A stretch of DNA of 32,717 nt from a virus. The position numbers were made by a program, and so were the translations under genes. Location of the stretch: IMG/VR virus record IMGVR_UViG_3300044643_001527, positions 1-32,717 of that record, one strand, 5' to 3'. Below are positions 24,746-32,717 of this stretch, in pieces; within the stretch, counting starts at the first letter, position 1; each line of letters opens with the position of its first letter. Under the pieces are notes generated by a model. It did not search any database. It saw nothing but the letters and a program-made list of their open reading frames with translations, and was not told the origin of the DNA.

Positions 24746-26577
24746 TGACCGAGCAAGAGCGGATCAAGATGCTTCAGCAGAGGGAGCGGAGCCGTGCTGC
24801 CGCTGCGTACAAGCCATCGCAAGGCCCGAACCCTGGCAGTCCGCTGACCGGCCAGAGGGGCGTCCCCGAGGATGTGCCGCTGGACCAGCTCACCCCGCAG
24901 CAGCGGAAGGACGTTGACTACACCCCGTTCGCCCCCGGTGTTCCCCGGCTCCCGAGGACCGGCGTGAACATGTGGGACGGAACCATCAACGAAGGTGCTG
25001 GCGGGTACGTTCCTCGCGCCCCGGACCCGGACCAGTTTGGCGCTGCCGCCAAGGGGCAAGAGATTCTCCCGAGCATCTCGTTCGAGTCGGAAGTCTCGAA
25101 GATGCCAATGGTGCGGATGCCAGCCGTGTCCTACCAGAAGCCCCCCCAGTCCAAGACCTTCCTCGCCGGGGCTCCCATTGCGGGCCTGCCAGCCTTCAGC
25201 CAGTACCCAGGCACCGGCGGGGCGATGGCTGATCACGCGCAGGACTTGATGGACAGGTTCTTCCCGAAGAACCCAGTGGAAGAAGCTGCCAAGGATCAAA
25301 GGGGCACCCCCGTCAACACCCCGAAGACCTCGCAGTTCCCACGAAACACGAGCGTCGTCTTCGGGAACGGGCCCACGGAACTGAAGGACAAAGACGGGGA
25401 CACGGTGCGAGTTGTCGGTGGAAAGTACCCCACTGACATTGACCCCGACGCGCTGGCCCGGTCGCTGGGCATCGATCCGTCTGCCTACCCACCCGAGGCC
25501 AGGCCCAAGCTGGAAGCCGACACCGCCGCCGCTCTGGCCCGGCACGAGCGGCTCTCCAAGAAGTTCGACTCGGTGCAGGTTCCCGGTGGTGGCTATCGGT
25601 ACAAGCCGAACGCTGCAACCGTGGCCGAAGGCGAAGCTCGAAAGGGAAAGTCTGCACTTCGCACCCTGTCCAGCCGCTGGGCCAGGGAGATGAACGCCGA
25701 CCGGGACGGGGACGGAAAGCCCGACTTCAACTCGGCCATGCTCGAAGCTGCCTACAACGACCCGTCCCTCGCGGGCATGTCCCACACCGAGAGGATGAAG
25801 TTCGTCAACGACAAGTACATCGACCAGTTCCGCAACGACCGCAGCTCCCGCATTCAGCTCGCTGTCGAGGAGCGGGCCAAGCACGACAACATGGCAAGGA
25901 GGCTGGGCGTCCCGGTCTCCAATGTCATGTTCCACTCGGATCTGGCCAACGCCCAGTCCCCTGAGGACAGGATCAGGGTTCTGCTCTCGTACCACGCCAT
26001 GGCACCGCAACTCGGTCTCGGGAACATGGCTGCCTACATCCAGCGGGGCCAAGACGAAGCCCGGTCGATGGAAGCCATGAGCAAGCACGAGCAAGCGAAG
26101 GCGGAAGCCGCTGATCCGAACAGGAGGCTGAACGCCGCCAACGCTGCCAACGCTGCCATGCCTCCGGGGATGGCCAAGATCGACGCCCTCAAGGCTGCCG
26201 CCAAAGCCGCATCGCCGGGGGGCAACATCACACCGGAAGCCCTGAACGACGCTGTCGTCTCTGGCGGTCTGGCGGATGTCAGGAAGCTGGCCTCCCAGCG
26301 GGGGCTGAGCCCCGACGAGCAGCTCCACATCAAGGAGTGGACCGCCGCGCTGATTGCCAGGAACGGTGGCCAGAGCAACTACAAGGCCCACGAAGCATTT
26401 GCCAGGCAGCTCGGGCTGCTGCCCTACAGCGACCAGGCTCGAAGACTCTGGAAGGTCGCAACAGGCAAGGACCCGATGTCCAAGGGTGAGAACAGTTACC
26501 TTCCAGACGGCTGGTACAACTGGTGGGCGGGCATCGACCCGGCCTACGAGACTGCCCCTGACCCAGGGAGCAACTGA
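24745..26577 (+). CDS. Internal virion-like protein (610 aa)
   Basis: Begins in the stop of the 1354-aa gene (TGATG). The N-terminal third is Pro-rich with short linear segments (GVPRLPRTG, PRAPDPDQF). The C-terminal half is helical with Ala/Asn-rich repeats (NAANAANAAMPPGMAK). No membrane segment or enzyme motif was identified. It sits between two giant proteins in one translationally coupled chain, as in the three-protein internal core of T7-like phages (gp14-gp16), to which it is compared only by position. Confidence 0.6.
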   Translation: MTEQERIKMLQQRERSRAAAAYKPSQGPNPGSPLTGQRGVPEDVPLDQLTPQQRKDVDYTPFAPGVPRLPRTGVNMWDGTINEGAGGYVPRAPDPDQFGAAAKGQEILPSISFESEVSKMPMVRMPAVSYQKPPQSKTFLAGAPIAGLPAFSQYPGTGGAMADHAQDLMDRFFPKNPVEEAAKDQRGTPVNTPKTSQFPRNTSVVFGNGPTELKDKDGDTVRVVGGKYPTDIDPDALARSLGIDPSAYPPEARPKLEADTAAALARHERLSKKFDSVQVPGGGYRYKPNAATVAEGEARKGKSALRTLSSRWAREMNADRDGDGKPDFNSAMLEAAYNDPSLAGMSHTERMKFVNDKYIDQFRNDRSSRIQLAVEERAKHDNMARRLGVPVSNVMFHSDLANAQSPEDRIRVLLSYHAMAPQLGLGNMAAYIQRGQDEARSMEAMSKHEQAKAEAADPNRRLNAANAANAAMPPGMAKIDALKAAAKAASPGGNITPEALNDAVVSGGLADVRKLASQRGLSPDEQLHIKEWTAALIARNGGQSNYKAHEAFARQLGLLPYSDQARRLWKVATGKDPMSKGENSYLPDGWYNWWAGIDPAYETAPDPGSN

Positions 26578-29500
26578 TGTCCCTGAGCTACTTCGACCAG
26601 CAGCCGGGCAGGCGTCCGTCCATTGGGTACGGGTCCCAGGGGTACTTCCCTGTGGACCCCGAGATGGCGTCGGACGAGCTGACCCCGGAGCAGCGAGAGT
26701 CGCTCTTGGAGATGGTCGGCAACCGCACCATGCAGGGTGCCGGTGCCCTGCTGGACCTGATCGACACTCCCGCCTCTTGGTTGCGGGACATTGTCTCAGG
26801 CAACAGTCTTGGCAGTCGGACCACACCCGGCGAGATGTTGGACTCGTGGGGCCTTCGCCCGGACGAAGACAGCCTTGGTGGGTGGGGGCGTCCGCTTGCT
26901 GAGTTCACTGCGGGTGCGGTCGTTGACCCCTTGCTGGTTCTGGGTGGTGGCCTCGGCAAGGCGGGAGTGGCGGCAACGAAGGCTGGGGCTCAGCTCGGTC
27001 GATCCGCTCAGGGGGTGATGGGCAGGCAGATCCTCAACGCCGCCGACACCTCCCGCAGTTTCACCAGGAACGCACTCGACTCCTGGACCACCAACTTCAA
27101 CGGCAAGCCAGCCAGCACGTTCACGGACCTTGACCTCGAAGTCAGGCCGCTGGTCGGAGCAAGGGAAGCACAGAGAAGCCAGACCCTCAGGCAAGTGGCT
27201 GACGGCCAAGCTGCTGCCGCTCGTGGCGGTGCCTACGACGCCCTCCGCACGGCAGCCGGTGGGCAGAGCCAGCTCGACAGCATCCTCGACCAGCCGCTTC
27301 GGTACGACATCGGACTCAAGCTGCCACTGTCAGACCGGGTGCTGGTGGGGGCGAACCTGCCCGGCGGGCTGAACTTGGCTCAGGGTCTCGATCGGGTGGA
27401 CCAAGCAGTCCGGTGGTCGGGAGTCGGCCGTGCCTTCAACGCACTCACCGACAAGCCGCTTGCCGGTGCCCTCGACGAGAAGGGTCAGATCATCGGCTCG
27501 TCCATGGGTAGGTCGCAGGCAGACGCGACTGTGCAGGGCAACAGGCTGGTGGCCCAGACCATCACCCCAGCAGCCACTGAACTGAACCAGATCGCAGACC
27601 CTCGGGTAAGGACGTCCATCAACCAGGCTCTCCGCAGGGCACTGGACGGGTACCCCAACCCCGGAGACGCCACCCTCCTGGCACAGTACCCAGAGACCCG
27701 CAGGTTCGTTGACACCTGGCACAGGCCGGGCGGATTGCGGGAACAGATGCAGGAGATGCGGAGACAGGCTGGGCTCGGCGGGGAGGACTGGGAAGACCAG
27801 TGGCTGGGAACTTACTTCCCCCGCCATGTCAACGACGAGAACTTCCTCGATCTCATCGAGCAGCAGGGGCCAGCCGCTTCCTCTGTCGGCAGTCGGGCCC
27901 ACTCCAACATGACCGGGGACCAGGCAGCGCGTCGTCAGTTTGCCGCAGTCCCCGGTGGCACCGACATGCTGAACCGGCTCAGCCGAGATTCTCGCATTGC
28001 AGGCAGGCTGAGAACGGCAGCGAGCGATGACGACGCTGCTGCCATCATCCTCAACTTGGTGAATAACGAGATCGCCACGAGATGGCCAACAGGCAGGCTC
28101 GGTCAGGGTCCTGTCCCTGGGTACACGATCGACAACGCTCGCCGTCTGGCGAGGATGCTGCACCACATCGACCCTGAGTCTGTGGCTCGCGGCATGGATC
28201 TGTACTCTGCCTCACCGCTGGACGACCTATCCCGCTACATCGTCGGCAACCACCGGGCGGCGGCGGTGAACAACACCACGTTCGACATGCTGAACGGCGT
28301 GGCCCAGCCCAGCAGCCACTACGCGGTGAACCAAGCCGGGGCGTTCAATCCCCACGATCCTCTGAGTCAGGTCTTGGCCCAGGACCTTGGCATCCGCACC
28401 AGGGACATGACCGGGGGACTCATCGGCCCGCTACCTCAGGGGCAGAACAGGTTCGCTGGTGGCATCCCGCAGATGCAGGACAGGCTCCAGAGGTTTCAGG
28501 CTGGACCCGAGCCGCTCGACCTGACCCAGGTCTCAGTGGATCAAGACACTGTCCGACGCATCACTCGGATGAAGGAGTATTACGCCAAGCCGGAACTCCA
28601 CAACGAGCTGACCAAGGTGATCGACGGCGTCACCCGCATGTGGAAGGGTCCCTTGCTTGCCTGGCCCGCCAAGTTTGCGCGTGACAAGATCGGCGGCACG
28701 ATCCTCAATGTGGTGGAGACCGGCAGCCCGACTGACGTTCTCCGGGGAAGCTACTTCACGAAGCTGCTGGTCCAGGGCAGGCTCGACCTGCTCGAAGACG
28801 AGCTGGCTGTGATGCCTCGGTACGCCGGGATGCAAGCCGGAACTCGGGTTCGCAGGTACCAGGAGGACCTCGCCGCCTACGACATGATGGGCAGAGGGAC
28901 AAGCCTTGACCTGAACGCTGCCACCCAGGACATCCAGCACGGCACCCACACGATTGACCAGTTCGTGCCCGGCCTGAACCCGCAGACGACCGCTGGCTAC
29001 CAAGCCGCCGACTTGCTGAACATGGCTACCGGTGGCCCGGCTCCGCTGCACCCCAGGCATGCTGCCTACTCGGAGCTTGGGAACGCCCAGAACTGGAGCC
29101 GAAGGAACTTCTTCGGTGGTCTCTGGGATCCCAAGCAGAACACCAACCCGATCACGAGGTACGGGGCCAGGCAGGGTGACCTCACGGATCTCACCAACCG
29201 GCTGACCGGGTACAACGCCATGCTTCTCCAGGGTGCCGACCCCAGCGAAGCAGCCCGCCGGATGAAGAAGCTGCACATCGACTACTCGACCCTGACGAGG
29301 TTCGAGAAGGACTACCTCCGAAGGCTCATTCCGTTCTATGCCTACACCTCTCGGATGTCGGCCAATGCTGCCGAGATGATCTACGACCAGCCCAGCGGCA
29401 GGTACACCCAGCTGGCCATGCGGCTGCCACGGGACATCATGGGCGAGAGCGGCGAGGGCGAGGAAGACTACGTTCCCGAGTCGATCAAGCAGAGCTACGG

Positions 29501-30269
29501 GTTCCGGGCCAAGGACGGCATCGCAGCCAAGCTGATCAACCCGTTCGGGGCACCGCCCGACGACGTCACTCCCTGGGTCACAGACATCGACATCCCCGGC
29601 ATCGACCAAATCGGAATGTTCCAACCGGTGTTCGACTCCAGCGGAAACCTGGAGTTGGGCAACACTGCCTACAAGTCTTTCCAGGACGCAGTCGGCAAGA
29701 ACGCAAACCCGATGCTGAAGGCTGGGCTTGAGACGTTGACGGGAGTTGACTCATTCACCAAGCGACCACTGAACTCGATGAACACGGCAGCCAACCAGCT
29801 GGCCGAGCAGTGGTTCAACATCCACCCGGACAGCGTCTACGGTCAGCACATCCGCTCAGCGAAGCCCCTCCTGGACATGGCACCGTTCATGCCGCGAATC
29901 CTCCAGGTCGCCAACCGTTTGACCGACGACGAGAAAGTCCCGGACGTTCGGAATCGTGTCGCTCAGATGGGCATCAACATGTACACGGGCATCAAGGCCC
30001 AGAACGTCAACGACCAGACAAGACGACGGGACGCCCGCAAGCAGATCGGTGAGATCGTCGAGCAGGATCCAATCGTCCGCAGCTTCACCCAGCCGTTCAT
30101 CCCGAAGCAAGCACTCCCCTACGCCGACCCCGAGCTGGTGGATCTCATGGCTCTCGACCGTCAGCTCTCCCGAGAACTGAAGGCGGAACAGGACCTCAAG
30201 CACGGCATCATCCCCACTAAGAAGAAACGGCAGCGGAACACTGACCCGATGTCGTACTTTGAAGGATAG
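26577..30269 (+). CDS. Giant internal virion protein with DYS-FEK-LRR-IPFY motif
   Basis: A 1230-aa protein, last of the virion operon. A Gly/Ala-rich, partly hydrophobic segment lies at about residues 108-140 (FTAGAVVDPLLVLGGGLGKA). From about residue 902 (DNA 29280) it has DYSTLTRFEKDYLRRLIPFY, a motif that recurs in very large phage structural/ejection proteins near their C-termini. The remainder is helical. No clear protease, lysozyme or polymerase signature was seen. It ends with TAG at 30267-30269, inside the convergent integrase gene (53-base overlap). Probable core protein delivered with DNA; the family name is from memory. Confidence 0.66.
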   Translation: MSLSYFDQQPGRRPSIGYGSQGYFPVDPEMASDELTPEQRESLLEMVGNRTMQGAGALLDLIDTPASWLRDIVSGNSLGSRTTPGEMLDSWGLRPDEDSLGGWGRPLAEFTAGAVVDPLLVLGGGLGKAGVAATKAGAQLGRSAQGVMGRQILNAADTSRSFTRNALDSWTTNFNGKPASTFTDLDLEVRPLVGAREAQRSQTLRQVADGQAAAARGGAYDALRTAAGGQSQLDSILDQPLRYDIGLKLPLSDRVLVGANLPGGLNLAQGLDRVDQAVRWSGVGRAFNALTDKPLAGALDEKGQIIGSSMGRSQADATVQGNRLVAQTITPAATELNQIADPRVRTSINQALRRALDGYPNPGDATLLAQYPETRRFVDTWHRPGGLREQMQEMRRQAGLGGEDWEDQWLGTYFPRHVNDENFLDLIEQQGPAASSVGSRAHSNMTGDQAARRQFAAVPGGTDMLNRLSRDSRIAGRLRTAASDDDAAAIILNLVNNEIATRWPTGRLGQGPVPGYTIDNARRLARMLHHIDPESVARGMDLYSASPLDDLSRYIVGNHRAAAVNNTTFDMLNGVAQPSSHYAVNQAGAFNPHDPLSQVLAQDLGIRTRDMTGGLIGPLPQGQNRFAGGIPQMQDRLQRFQAGPEPLDLTQVSVDQDTVRRITRMKEYYAKPELHNELTKVIDGVTRMWKGPLLAWPAKFARDKIGGTILNVVETGSPTDVLRGSYFTKLLVQGRLDLLEDELAVMPRYAGMQAGTRVRRYQEDLAAYDMMGRGTSLDLNAATQDIQHGTHTIDQFVPGLNPQTTAGYQAADLLNMATGGPAPLHPRHAAYSELGNAQNWSRRNFFGGLWDPKQNTNPITRYGARQGDLTDLTNRLTGYNAMLLQGADPSEAARRMKKLHIDYSTLTRFEKDYLRRLIPFYAYTSRMSANAAEMIYDQPSGRYTQLAMRLPRDIMGESGEGEEDYVPESIKQSYGFRAKDGIAAKLINPFGAPPDDVTPWVTDIDIPGIDQIGMFQPVFDSSGNLELGNTAYKSFQDAVGKNANPMLKAGLETLTGVDSFTKRPLNSMNTAANQLAEQWFNIHPDSVYGQHIRSAKPLLDMAPFMPRILQVANRLTDDEKVPDVRNRVAQMGINMYTGIKAQNVNDQTRRRDARKQIGEIVEQDPIVRSFTQPFIPKQALPYADPELVDLMALDRQLSRELKAEQDLKHGIIPTKKKRQRNTDPMSYFEG

Positions 30270-31080
30270 GCGGGGGCATGGGCGTCCTGTCGGGCAGCAG
30301 AGTGGGATCCAGGTAATGCTTCTCTGCCAGCCCGATCGATTTGTGTCCCAGGAAAGCCCTGGCTGTCCCCGGCTGGGTAGCCTCCACATGGGTGGCCCCG
30401 CTTCTCCGCAGGAACTTGGTGGACCCCCGCAGACCGGCAGCCTCGACCACTCGCTTGAAGTGCAGGAACAGCCAGGTGCGGGCCAGTGCCCACTTGAAGA
30501 CGGTCTGCCCGTCGCCCCGAGCCACCAGCTCATCGACCGCAGCGGCACACTCCCGTGTCAGCCTCTTGCCGATCGGCTGGCCCGTCTTGTGGGCGACCAC
30601 ATACAGGCGACCCCGCCGCACCGCAGAAGCCCGCAGATTGTGGAGGTCGCCCATCCTCAAGCCCGACTCGTAACCCAGCAAAACCCACGCTCGCCAGAAC
30701 GGACGATGCGGACACCCGGAGCCGTAGGTGAAGTCCCCCCGCATTGTGTCGATGTAGTCGAGCAACTGTTTCAGCTCCTCGATCGACCAAGCAACTGGCG
30801 GGGAAACCGGGGCCTTGACAGTGGCGATCCGTCCGATAGATTTCTCCGTCAGTCCGGCGTCGATGGCTGCCCTCCAGAGGGTCAATCCCATTCGCCGGTA
30901 GTTCGATCGAGTGGTGGCCGAGCTGGAGAGCAAGGCGAGCCATCGGTTGAACGCAGGAGTCTCGATCGTCAATGGAGTGATGCCCGAGTTGGCCATGCTT
31001 TTGGCCACTCGCAGCAGTGCCTGTCGGTAGTCAGCCGACACGGTTCTTTCATCGCAGTACATGGAGGCAACTTCGATCAT
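30217..31080 (-). CDS. int: Tyrosine recombinase (integrase)
   Basis: A 287-aa phage integrase that recombines attP with a chromosomal attB. Catalytic residues are in order: Arg142 (SGLRMGDL), Lys165 (AHKTGQ), Lys222-x-x-Arg225 (KFLRRSGAT, with Lys where many enzymes have His), His246 (LGHKS) and the nucleophile Tyr256 (AEKHYLDP). The N-terminal about 95 residues look like a SAM-like core-binding domain. A large separate arm-binding domain is not obvious, so the protein is rather short. It starts at 31080 and ends in a 31-residue tail after Tyr256 whose coding sequence is antisense to the end of the last virion gene. The attP core lies about 120 bases upstream of its start. Confidence 0.93.
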   Translation of the reverse strand: MIEVASMYCDERTVSADYRQALLRVAKSMANSGITPLTIETPAFNRWLALLSSSATTRSNYRRMGLTLWRAAIDAGLTEKSIGRIATVKAPVSPPVAWSIEELKQLLDYIDTMRGDFTYGSGCPHRPFWRAWVLLGYESGLRMGDLHNLRASAVRRGRLYVVAHKTGQPIGKRLTRECAAAVDELVARGDGQTVFKWALARTWLFLHFKRVVEAAGLRGSTKFLRRSGATHVEATQPGTARAFLGHKSIGLAEKHYLDPTLLPDRTPMPPPILQSTTSGQCSAAVSS

Positions 31081-31120
31081 GGATGTCTCTCTTCCCGCCC
31101 AGGGTGGAGAGAGTACCAGC

Positions 31121-31135
31121 GGAAAAAAGACCGAC
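31121..31135. promoter_or_regulatory. Candidate integrase arm site 1
   Basis: GGAAAAAAGACCGAC, an A-tract followed by CCGAC. It resembles the motif at 31277-31291 (GAAAAAATCTCCGAC) with one base less in the spacer. It lies on the integrase side of the attP core. Reading as an arm-type or accessory (IHF-like) site is inference from repetition and position. Confidence 0.4.
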
Positions 31136-31168
31136 GATTGTCGTTTCAGCCGAGACGCTTCTCAGGGG

Positions 31169-32119
31169 ATGCACCCCCCGGAAAACTCTCCGCTGTCGGC
31201 AAAGTCGGTAGAGGACCGGCTTCATAAGCCGGGTGTCGCCGGTTCAAGTCCGGCCGCTGCTACTCTCGATTTCTCAGAAAAAATCTCCGACTACCATGCC
31301 GACCGGGCGTGGTGGTCGAAGTCCCAGCTTTGGGACCTGCACTCCCGTGGGCCACTCTGGTTCCACGGCAGATACCTCACTGGTGAATACACCGGACCAT
31401 GGGGATCGTCCCTTAGCAAGGGAACGAACGTCCACTCATGGGCCGAAGATCCCGAGGCATGGTGGGCCAGGGTTGCCGTGGTCCCCGACGAGTTCGTCGG
31501 AGTCAACGGCGCGATCCTCAAGAAGGGTGAAGCGTGGGTGGCCGAGCAGGCCGCTGACGCTGTCATCCTCAAGCCATCCGAGGTCGAGGCGTACCGGGCT
31601 CAGTTCGCCCGGCTGATGGACGATCCGGTGTTCCGTCAGCTCACCGAGCAGACCGAGCATCGTGAGTTCTCGATCCGTTGGGTCTGCGAGGACACCGGCC
31701 TCCCCGTTCGCTGCCGACCAGACGCAGCGACCGAGACCGTCCTGTGGGATCTCAAGACCACCAAGGACGAAGACCCGCTGAAGACCTGGGTCCATGCCGC
31801 CCACAAGTTTGGCTACGGATTCCAGGCTGCTCTCTACACCCGCATCGCCCGAGCTGCCGGGTTCAGGGTGAAGCAGTTCGTCTTCATGGTGACCAGCACC
31901 GTGCCTCCCTATGAGGCGTGTGCCGTCACCCTCCCTCAGGACTACCTCGCTCAGTGCGAGAGGCAGGTCCTGTCTGCATGCCGCGATCTGAAAGAGCGGC
32001 TGGCGTTCGACCACTGGCTTCGTTCGGAGCGTGGCCAGATCACGGAGTTGGAAGTTCCCCGGTACTACATGGAGGCGAGAGAGCATGAAGCTCGATCACG
32101 ACTTGACTGGAGTGAGTAG
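31169..32119 (+). CDS. RecE/DUF3799-like PD-(D/E)XK nuclease, start unclear
   Basis: Predicted 5'-3' double-strand exonuclease that makes single-stranded tails for the annealing protein encoded next. The conserved region begins at SDYHADRAWWSKSQLWDLHSR (DNA about 31286), a style typical of DUF3799/PDDEXK phage nucleases. Catalytic pattern: Asp in CRPDA (31721-31723), DLK (Asp 31748-31750, Lys 31754-31756), then a Gln in FQAALY (31823-31825). The start is a problem. The frame is open from ATG 31061 through 31079 (GGAGG 11 bases upstream) and 31169 (given here, the last canonical start), but all three lie before the attP core and the sequence up to about 31283 lacks the usual C/G third-base bias. 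No ATG, GTG or TTG follows the core. The function is much surer than the start. Confidence 0.78.
   Translation: MHPPENSPLSAKSVEDRLHKPGVAGSSPAAATLDFSEKISDYHADRAWWSKSQLWDLHSRGPLWFHGRYLTGEYTGPWGSSLSKGTNVHSWAEDPEAWWARVAVVPDEFVGVNGAILKKGEAWVAEQAADAVILKPSEVEAYRAQFARLMDDPVFRQLTEQTEHREFSIRWVCEDTGLPVRCRPDAATETVLWDLKTTKDEDPLKTWVHAAHKFGYGFQAALYTRIARAAGFRVKQFVFMVTSTVPPYEACAVTLPQDYLAQCERQVLSACRDLKERLAFDHWLRSERGQITELEVPRYYMEAREHEARSRLDWSE
31180..31199. promoter_or_regulatory. Candidate integrase arm site 2
   Basis: GGAAAACTCTCCGCTGTCGG, a weaker version of the A-tract/CTCCG motif, ending just before the tRNA-like core. Shares AAAA-x(1-3)-TCTCCG with 31277-31291. Confidence 0.3.
31203..31262 (+). other. 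attP: attP core: 3' part of a tRNA gene with CAT anticodon
   Basis: From AGTCGGTAG on, this is a good tRNA 3' portion: anticodon stem CCGGC (31216-31220) and GCCGG (31228-31232) around loop TTCATAA; T stem GCCGG (31238-31242) and CCGGC (31250-31254) around TTCAAGT; 3' acceptor strand CGCTGCT (31255-31261) and discriminator A. The D stem and the 5' acceptor strand do not pair, so it is not an intact tRNA but the half a phage carries to rebuild a tRNA gene on integration. Anticodon CAT means elongator Met or Ile2; the anticodon stem lacks the initiator GGG/CCC pairs. No CCA is encoded. Adjacent integrase supports attP. Confidence 0.85.
31277..31291. promoter_or_regulatory. Candidate integrase arm site 3
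   Basis: GAAAAAATCTCCGAC on the far side of the tRNA core, the best match to the motif at 31121-31135. With the other copies it brackets the core, as expected of P and P' arms. It lies at the very start of the well-conserved part of the nuclease reading frame. Confidence 0.4.
32071..32075 (+). promoter_or_regulatory. Shine-Dalgarno of the annealing protein gene
   Basis: GGAGG nine bases before ATG 32085. It lies inside the end of the nuclease gene and fixes the start of the overlapping downstream gene, so the two genes are translationally coupled. Confidence 0.7.
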
Positions 32120-32717
32120 TTCCCCCGAAACGGGCGAGTTCTACAAGGCACTGAACCTGGCACAGCGTGGGTTCAAGGCGATCAAGAGAAGCGGCCTGAA
32201 CAAGGTCGAGGGGTTTCGGTACAGCACGTTCAAGGACATCTGTGATGCCATCCTGCCAGCGTTGCTGGAGCAGGGGTTCACGATGCCGACGTTCTCGGTT
32301 GGCTACGACCGGACGATGGGAACGTGGGTCATGGTGGGTGTTCTCAACCACACCTCGGACCAGTGGGTGTCGTCGGTCTGTCCTCTGCTCATGGGCTACA
32401 CCCAGGACGACAGGCCGGGCATCAGGGTCCTCGAAGCCAACGCGACCTACGCCAAGAAGATTCTCATGGCTGGGCTGTGCGGCGGTTGGATGGAGTCCGA
32501 AGAGCCCGAGGCCGAGCAGCAGGTGATCGAGGGGGTGGTCGAGAAGGCTGCCGTCGTGGCGGTTGCCGAGCCCGAGCAGCCGTCGCTGCCCGAGCCGGTG
32601 AAGCAGAAGAAGCGGTCCAAGCCGCAGCCCATGTCCGACGAGACGCGGGACCTGATCGCCAGAGCGGACGCTGCGATGACGGCCAAGGCTGGCAACGAAG
32701 CCGACCTGGCTAAGTGC
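32085..32717 (+). CDS. ERF-family-like single-strand annealing protein (3'-truncated by window edge)
   Basis: Recombinase that anneals complementary single strands, partner of the nuclease upstream. The frame is open for 211 codons to the window edge. The order of motifs fits the ERF superfamily: FYKALNLAQRGFKAIKRS at the N-terminus, FRYSTFKDICDAILPALLEQ (residues about 46-65), a VLNHTSDQWV strand pair, EANATYAKKILMAGLCGGW (residues about 123-141), then an acidic and Pro/Lys-rich linker and a final helical part. Overlaps the nuclease stop by 35 bases. Start ATG 32085 is supported by GGAGG; a GTG at 32112 is a weaker alternative. The family call is from pattern memory; RecT or Sak type is less likely. 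Confidence 0.82.
   Translation, partial: MKLDHDLTGVSSSPETGEFYKALNLAQRGFKAIKRSGLNKVEGFRYSTFKDICDAILPALLEQGFTMPTFSVGYDRTMGTWVMVGVLNHTSDQWVSSVCPLLMGYTQDDRPGIRVLEANATYAKKILMAGLCGGWMESEEPEAEQQVIEGVVEKAAVVAVAEPEQPSLPEPVKQKKRSKPQPMSDETRDLIARADAAMTAKAGNEADLAKC

Follow-up and report, generated by a model that had tools for sequence, protein, structure and literature searches.

A lake planctomycete virus family appears to keep its chromosomal insertion site inside the start of a nuclease gene

Attachment sites that lie inside phage genes are known. In the mycobacteriophage BPs and its relatives, attP is found within the repressor gene, beside the integrase, and gives rise to integration-dependent immunity: once the phage is integrated, the BPs repressor gene has lost its 3' end, which encodes a C-terminal degradation tag, and the repressor becomes active (PMC4557955). 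The Myxococcus phage Mx8 carries attP inside int itself, and integration makes a recombinant gene in which the 3' end of the integrase is changed; the integrase is still active, with altered specificity (PMC6070905). In the filamentous phage XacF1, attP lies inside ORF12 and the gene is split by integration (PMC5666396). In the attP-in-gene cases in the literature that we searched, the gene affected thus encodes a repressor, an integrase or a putative regulator, whereas the site described here lies in a lytic recombination nuclease. The open-access literature searched yielded no earlier case of attP within an exonuclease gene, which is weak evidence of absence.

The locus occupies the right end of a 32.7-kb viral record (IMG/VR IMGVR_UViG_3300044643_001527), the whole of which was analysed and is called the window. 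Here, the integrase and nuclease genes stand head to head with overlapping start codons (CATG, 31078-31081), and the features of this end are as follows.

30217-31080, minus strand: tyrosine integrase gene (PF00589, 29.1 bits, cut-off 27.1; PHROG integrase)
30815-30842, plus strand: sigma-70-like promoter site, TTGACA-16-TAGATT, within the integrase gene and directed toward the nuclease (consensus match only)
31063-31067, plus strand: Shine-Dalgarno-like GGAGG of the nuclease, from sequence, with comparable purine runs 5' of the aligned ATG in relatives
31079-31214, plus strand: likely nuclease start codon (31079-31081) and leader coding sequence; ATG aligned in L004, L044, L048, L005 and L089
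31086-31112, plus strand: inverted repeat TCTCTC...GAGAGA, just 3' of the nuclease start codon
31215-31262, plus strand: attP core, identical to the 3' part of host tRNA-Met(CAT) and in the nuclease frame reading RLHKPGVAGSSPAAA
31263-32119, plus strand: predicted folded nuclease domain and stop codon, PD-(D/E)XK, ExoVIII/RecE type (phrog_412, PF12684, RecE 3h4r, AlphaFold)
Core-to-domain junction peptide: LHKPGVAGSSPAAA joined to TLDFSEK
32085-32717, plus strand: Erf-type annealing gene (phrog_155, 2.1e-10; PF04404, 23.8 bits, slightly under the cut-off of 25)

The annealing gene is truncated by the window end, and its ATG (32085) is within the 3' end of the nuclease gene. Elsewhere in the window, a 1230-aa ORF (26577-30269) ends barely inside the integrase gene and is kept in relatives at 37-61% identity; PHROG and Pfam searches gave no match to it. 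Collagen-like Gly-X-Y repeats of the sort known from tail fibre proteins occur in several ORFs between 5011 and 13218.

Over 48 nt (31215-31262), the core matches planctomycete tRNA-Met(CAT) genes exactly, and the planctomycete genomes carrying the matching tRNA were assembled mostly from lakes. An earlier, sequence-only reading of this DNA had placed the core at 31203-31262; this stands for the exact 48 nt, but the 12 nt at 31203-31214 are merely tRNA-like. The Rfam tRNA model matches 31198-31262 with 31.9 bits (cut-off 29), while ARAGORN called no tRNA at the core, as expected of a partial gene.

From 31031 onwards, the nuclease frame is uninterrupted; it passes through the core and ends at the stop codon at 32117-32119, which puts the attP core inside the ORF of a phage gene. 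The sequence-only reading had followed this frame from 31061 across the core into the domain, and had noted that the only canonical starts ahead of the domain (31061, 31079 and 31169) lie on the integrase side of the core, with none between core and domain; both observations are upheld, the second for in-frame ATG, GTG and TTG alike. The likely start, judged from sequence, is the ATG at 31079, with the GGAGG at 31063-31067, since this ATG is common to the window's own group whereas 31061 is a lysine codon in L004. Ribosome-site-like purine runs precede the upstream ATG in nearly all relatives.

The observed fusion is conserved. When core DNA alone was used as an exact query, blind to frame, it retrieved 10 other viral contigs, and in 10/10 the nuclease frame runs through the core from a start on the integrase side, so that both the claim of a core within an open nuclease frame and the comparison with related phages that the sequence-only reading had proposed came out in its favour. 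A scan with a domain-only alignment found 24 loci, of which 17 have the nuclease and 2 another gene reading through the core, and 5 have no recognised core. Our proportions rest only on these two retrievals; a scan with the core-derived peptide (alignment A1) was excluded as biased, a single-protein nuclease scan of viral contigs gave no match and an integrase scan gave one weak locus. The leaders of 19 loci, 515 codons in all, contain 0 stops in the nuclease frame, compared to 18 and 24 in the other two frames. The 19 loci are kin and are not 19 independent tests, and the same caution applies to the other counts, as many of the loci are related. Nevertheless, independent contigs show the same fusion, which rules out a chance frame or an assembly or sequencing error, the latter having been raised in the sequence-only reading. 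A frameshift from the frame of GTG 31233 at the AAAAAA run near 31278 was also considered and dropped, as the run is absent from the relatives displayed.

If translation began at a non-standard codon just 3' of the core (ATC at 31283, as the sequence-only reading had suggested, or the ATT that follows the core in several relatives), then a functional nuclease would be made in both the free and the integrated form. That reading had also found the third-base composition upstream of about 31283 unlike coding sequence, a fair doubt but not a decisive one, with a leader GC3 of 0.62 against 0.617-0.851 in domain windows of equal size. However, directly 3' of the core the window group carries ACT, and L043 and L057 carry AGT; no start codon or ribosome site is conserved 3' of the core, the nuclease-frame leaders are stop-free, and relatives start 5' of the core with ribosome-site-like sequences. 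We therefore reject such a start as highly improbable. In L005 and L089, an in-frame TTG is present 3' of the core, which counts against loss of the start by integration.

The nuclease matches phrog_412 (2e-46) and PF12684 (50.9 bits), its domain profile matches RecE (3h4r) at 5.6e-32, and alignment A2 has invariant H, E, D and D-x-K columns, with the PD-(D/E)XK core residues present. With a profile match and conserved catalytic-core residues, it has the features of the RecE/exonuclease VIII family, and we classify it as an ExoVIII/RecE-type nuclease, from which 5'-3' dsDNA exonuclease activity is inferred. Members of this family that have an Erf or RecT partner share with it the kind of nuclease domain and the neighbouring gene, but in the outgroup RecE-type members from EvePickles, S-CBS1 and KBS-S-2A the N-terminus is short and the gene contains no attachment site. 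In an AlphaFold model built on an alignment of 16 sequences, residues 1-58 have pLDDT values under 50 and most of the domain exceeds 90; the first strand begins at residue 61, directly at the end of the core-encoded peptide. Leader and core are thus predicted to form a disordered tail, with the fold starting right after the core.

What becomes of the gene on integration can be seen at one junction. A domain-profile search of 72 host-family genomes found one close copy, on contig C271 of genome G027, where an intact host tRNA-Met is continuous with the nuclease frame, without a break. A TAG within the tRNA closes the frame upstream, and no ATG, GTG or TTG occurs in frame before codon 169 of 309, which lies deep in the domain. 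ORFs resembling a formate-dehydrogenase-like protein, MutS and DnaX (named from reading their translations) lie beyond the tRNA, and these host-type genes mark the contig as a chromosomal junction. The sequence-only reading had predicted that integration would swap the nuclease leader for the 5' half of a host tRNA, and had proposed to look at the junctions of integrated prophages; here, the nuclease end is indeed fused to host tRNA-Met and startless, so that the gene is altered by integration in a real lysogen, albeit only one. The nuclease reading frame is otherwise undamaged, which would be expected of a gene that regains its function after excision. A second copy of the core was sought in G027 and not found; the integrase-side junction is therefore missing.

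The opposite type of junction is found on contig C205 of genome G002 (L014), in which an integrase of the same family is followed by the core and then by host sequence that also occurs downstream of tRNA-Met in L019. Two same-family integrase genes are in tandem beside this junction, which suggests stacked integrated elements. Together with an integrase (PF00589 above cut-off) that adjoins the 48-nt tRNA 3' identity, the nuclease-side junction in G027, with its intact tRNA, and the integrase-side junction in G002 are what is expected of a tyrosine integrase that uses a tRNA attB. In IMG/VR viral contigs, scans for a core preceded by the 5' half of the tRNA found none, and so gave no second prophage junction, and class- and order-level genome searches found distant nucleases only, those read without a tRNA fusion. 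Thus, the nuclease-side prophage junction remains n=1.

Many relatives have a sigma-70-like site at a similar distance from the nuclease, about 264-310 bases 5' of the start. A promoter-like site falls in that interval in 12 loci, versus 1.4 expected from synonymous codon shuffles with the integrase proteins fixed; the count is inflated by shared ancestry, and planctomycete promoters may differ. The simplest reading, in which use of the promoter is inferred, is that integration would remove the promoter as well as the start. The inverted repeat is weak in the window, where 57/300 shuffles were as good, and strong in several relatives; in most relatives, a perfect inverted repeat of 6-10 bp lies within a few bases 3' of the nuclease ATG, and its sequence varies between phages (for example L004, L006 and L043). 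This suggests an operator or RNA hairpin, which would stay with the integrase after integration.

Collectively, the upstream start, the startless prophage junction and the promoter-like site on the integrase side indicate that integration should switch the nuclease off and excision restore it. We propose, with a probability of roughly 0.8, that attP lies within the 5' coding region of the nuclease gene, that integration removes the start and turns off the nuclease in the prophage, probably together with the annealing gene and early operon, and that excision rebuilds the gene. In the free genome, whether circular or infecting, the nuclease would be transcribed from a probable promoter inside the oppositely directed integrase gene and translated from ATG 31079 through the tRNA-Met core, folding just after it. 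Once the phage has inserted into the host tRNA-Met gene, the ATG would stay at the integrase end together with its ribosome site and the promoter-like site, and the nuclease end would be joined to an intact host tRNA. The 5' half of that tRNA contributes a TAG in frame but no start codon. As a result, the nuclease would be off, although its absence from lysogens is inferred without expression data. The overlapping annealing gene and the early operon that follows would probably be off too, through an inferred coupling in which the untranslated nuclease message and the lost promoter lower their expression. Excision would restore all of these. The benefit, also inferred, may be a lysogen free of an end-resecting nuclease, with lytic recombination and early genes tied to excision.

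Integration may instead rewire the operon, the host tRNA promoter reading into it so that the annealing and replication genes become constitutive and only the nuclease is off. In G027, the operon is directly downstream of the host tRNA and co-directional with it, and the annealing gene has its own ATG. Yet that gene overlaps the nuclease end, and an untranslated message is expected to cut its translation and invite Rho termination; this is an inference, with no transcript data. We regard rewiring as unlikely.

The arrangement is not universal, and the exceptions (the L037 group, the L058 group and L063/L065) count against our preferred reading, that integration silences the nuclease, as does the poor sequence conservation of the leader peptide. 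In the domain tree, the window lies beside the core-less L037 and L049, nested in a core-bearing clade. No integrase or core was found in these sister phages, and their nuclease has an ATG about 108 bp after an upstream structural gene, running straight into the domain. We count this direct joining of the upstream ATG to the domain, in the absence of integrase and core, in favour of silencing by integration. L037, L047 and L049, in which no integrase or core was detected, are closely related to the window, with 1230-aa proteins about 60% identical, and look like strictly lytic derivatives with the nuclease start fused directly to the domain. In L058, L059 and L067, the integrase is head to head with a long-leader nuclease, and no tRNA arm was recognised. 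In L063 and L065, an ORF without a Pfam match stands between core and nuclease (L065:3207-3956, and the same place in L063); this ORF uses the shared leader and continues across the core, replacing the nuclease, which has its own ATG.

It is quite possible, if not our favoured view, that the anatomy and the decapitation, though real, are a by-product: the attachment site would merely sit in a dispensable N-terminal tail, other regulators would already silence the operon in lysogens, and nothing would be regulated by loss of the start. This would fit a disordered tail whose sequence is poorly conserved, the existence of core-less relatives and the replacement of the nuclease by another gene at the core in L063/L065. 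It fits less well with the promoter-like site being on the side that integration removes, and with an in-frame arrangement that persists despite changes in leader length (about 6 to 50 codons), core type (L061 and L064 have an alternative core resembling tRNA-Gly, with the frame still open) and frame (L062 and L066 read the tRNA-Met core in a different one, also open).

A bolder form of silencing by integration is that lysogeny is held mainly by the arrangement of the DNA, with the early promoter, ribosome site and start codon parted from the whole early operon, no classical repressor needed and excision as the induction switch. No HTH_3-type repressor was found above cut-off in 17 related records, which leaves room for such a lysogeny but does not prove it, and we hold the idea to be doubtful for now.

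How, then, does the locus compare with the described systems? As in BPs, attP is in a phage ORF adjoining the integrase gene and integration alters the gene product, but here a recombination nuclease gene is deprived of its 5' end and start codon and should become inactive. Two defining features of BPs-type immunity were tested, a repressor that holds attP and removal of the 3' end, and neither is met by an ExoVIII/RecE-type nuclease that loses its 5' end; the window's system is thus not of the BPs immunity type. Mx8 likewise has attP in a phage coding sequence and a recombinant gene made by integration, but the altered gene is the integrase itself, at its 3' end, rather than a nuclease. XacF1 shares the splitting of a phage gene in two by integration, but it is an inovirus that uses host XerC/D at dif, and ORF12 is a possible regulator, not a nuclease. 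What is new, then, is not attP in a gene but the type of gene (a recombination nuclease), the end removed (the 5' end, with the start and probably the promoter) and the expected sign (off).

As read from their genomes, this family of lake planctomycete viruses keeps its chromosomal insertion site inside the start of a nuclease gene, and the arrangement is conserved. In prophages, genes of this kind will be overlooked or cut short by gene callers. Provided that expression follows the DNA, a lytic gene, and perhaps its operon, would be switched off by integration alone and switched on by excision.
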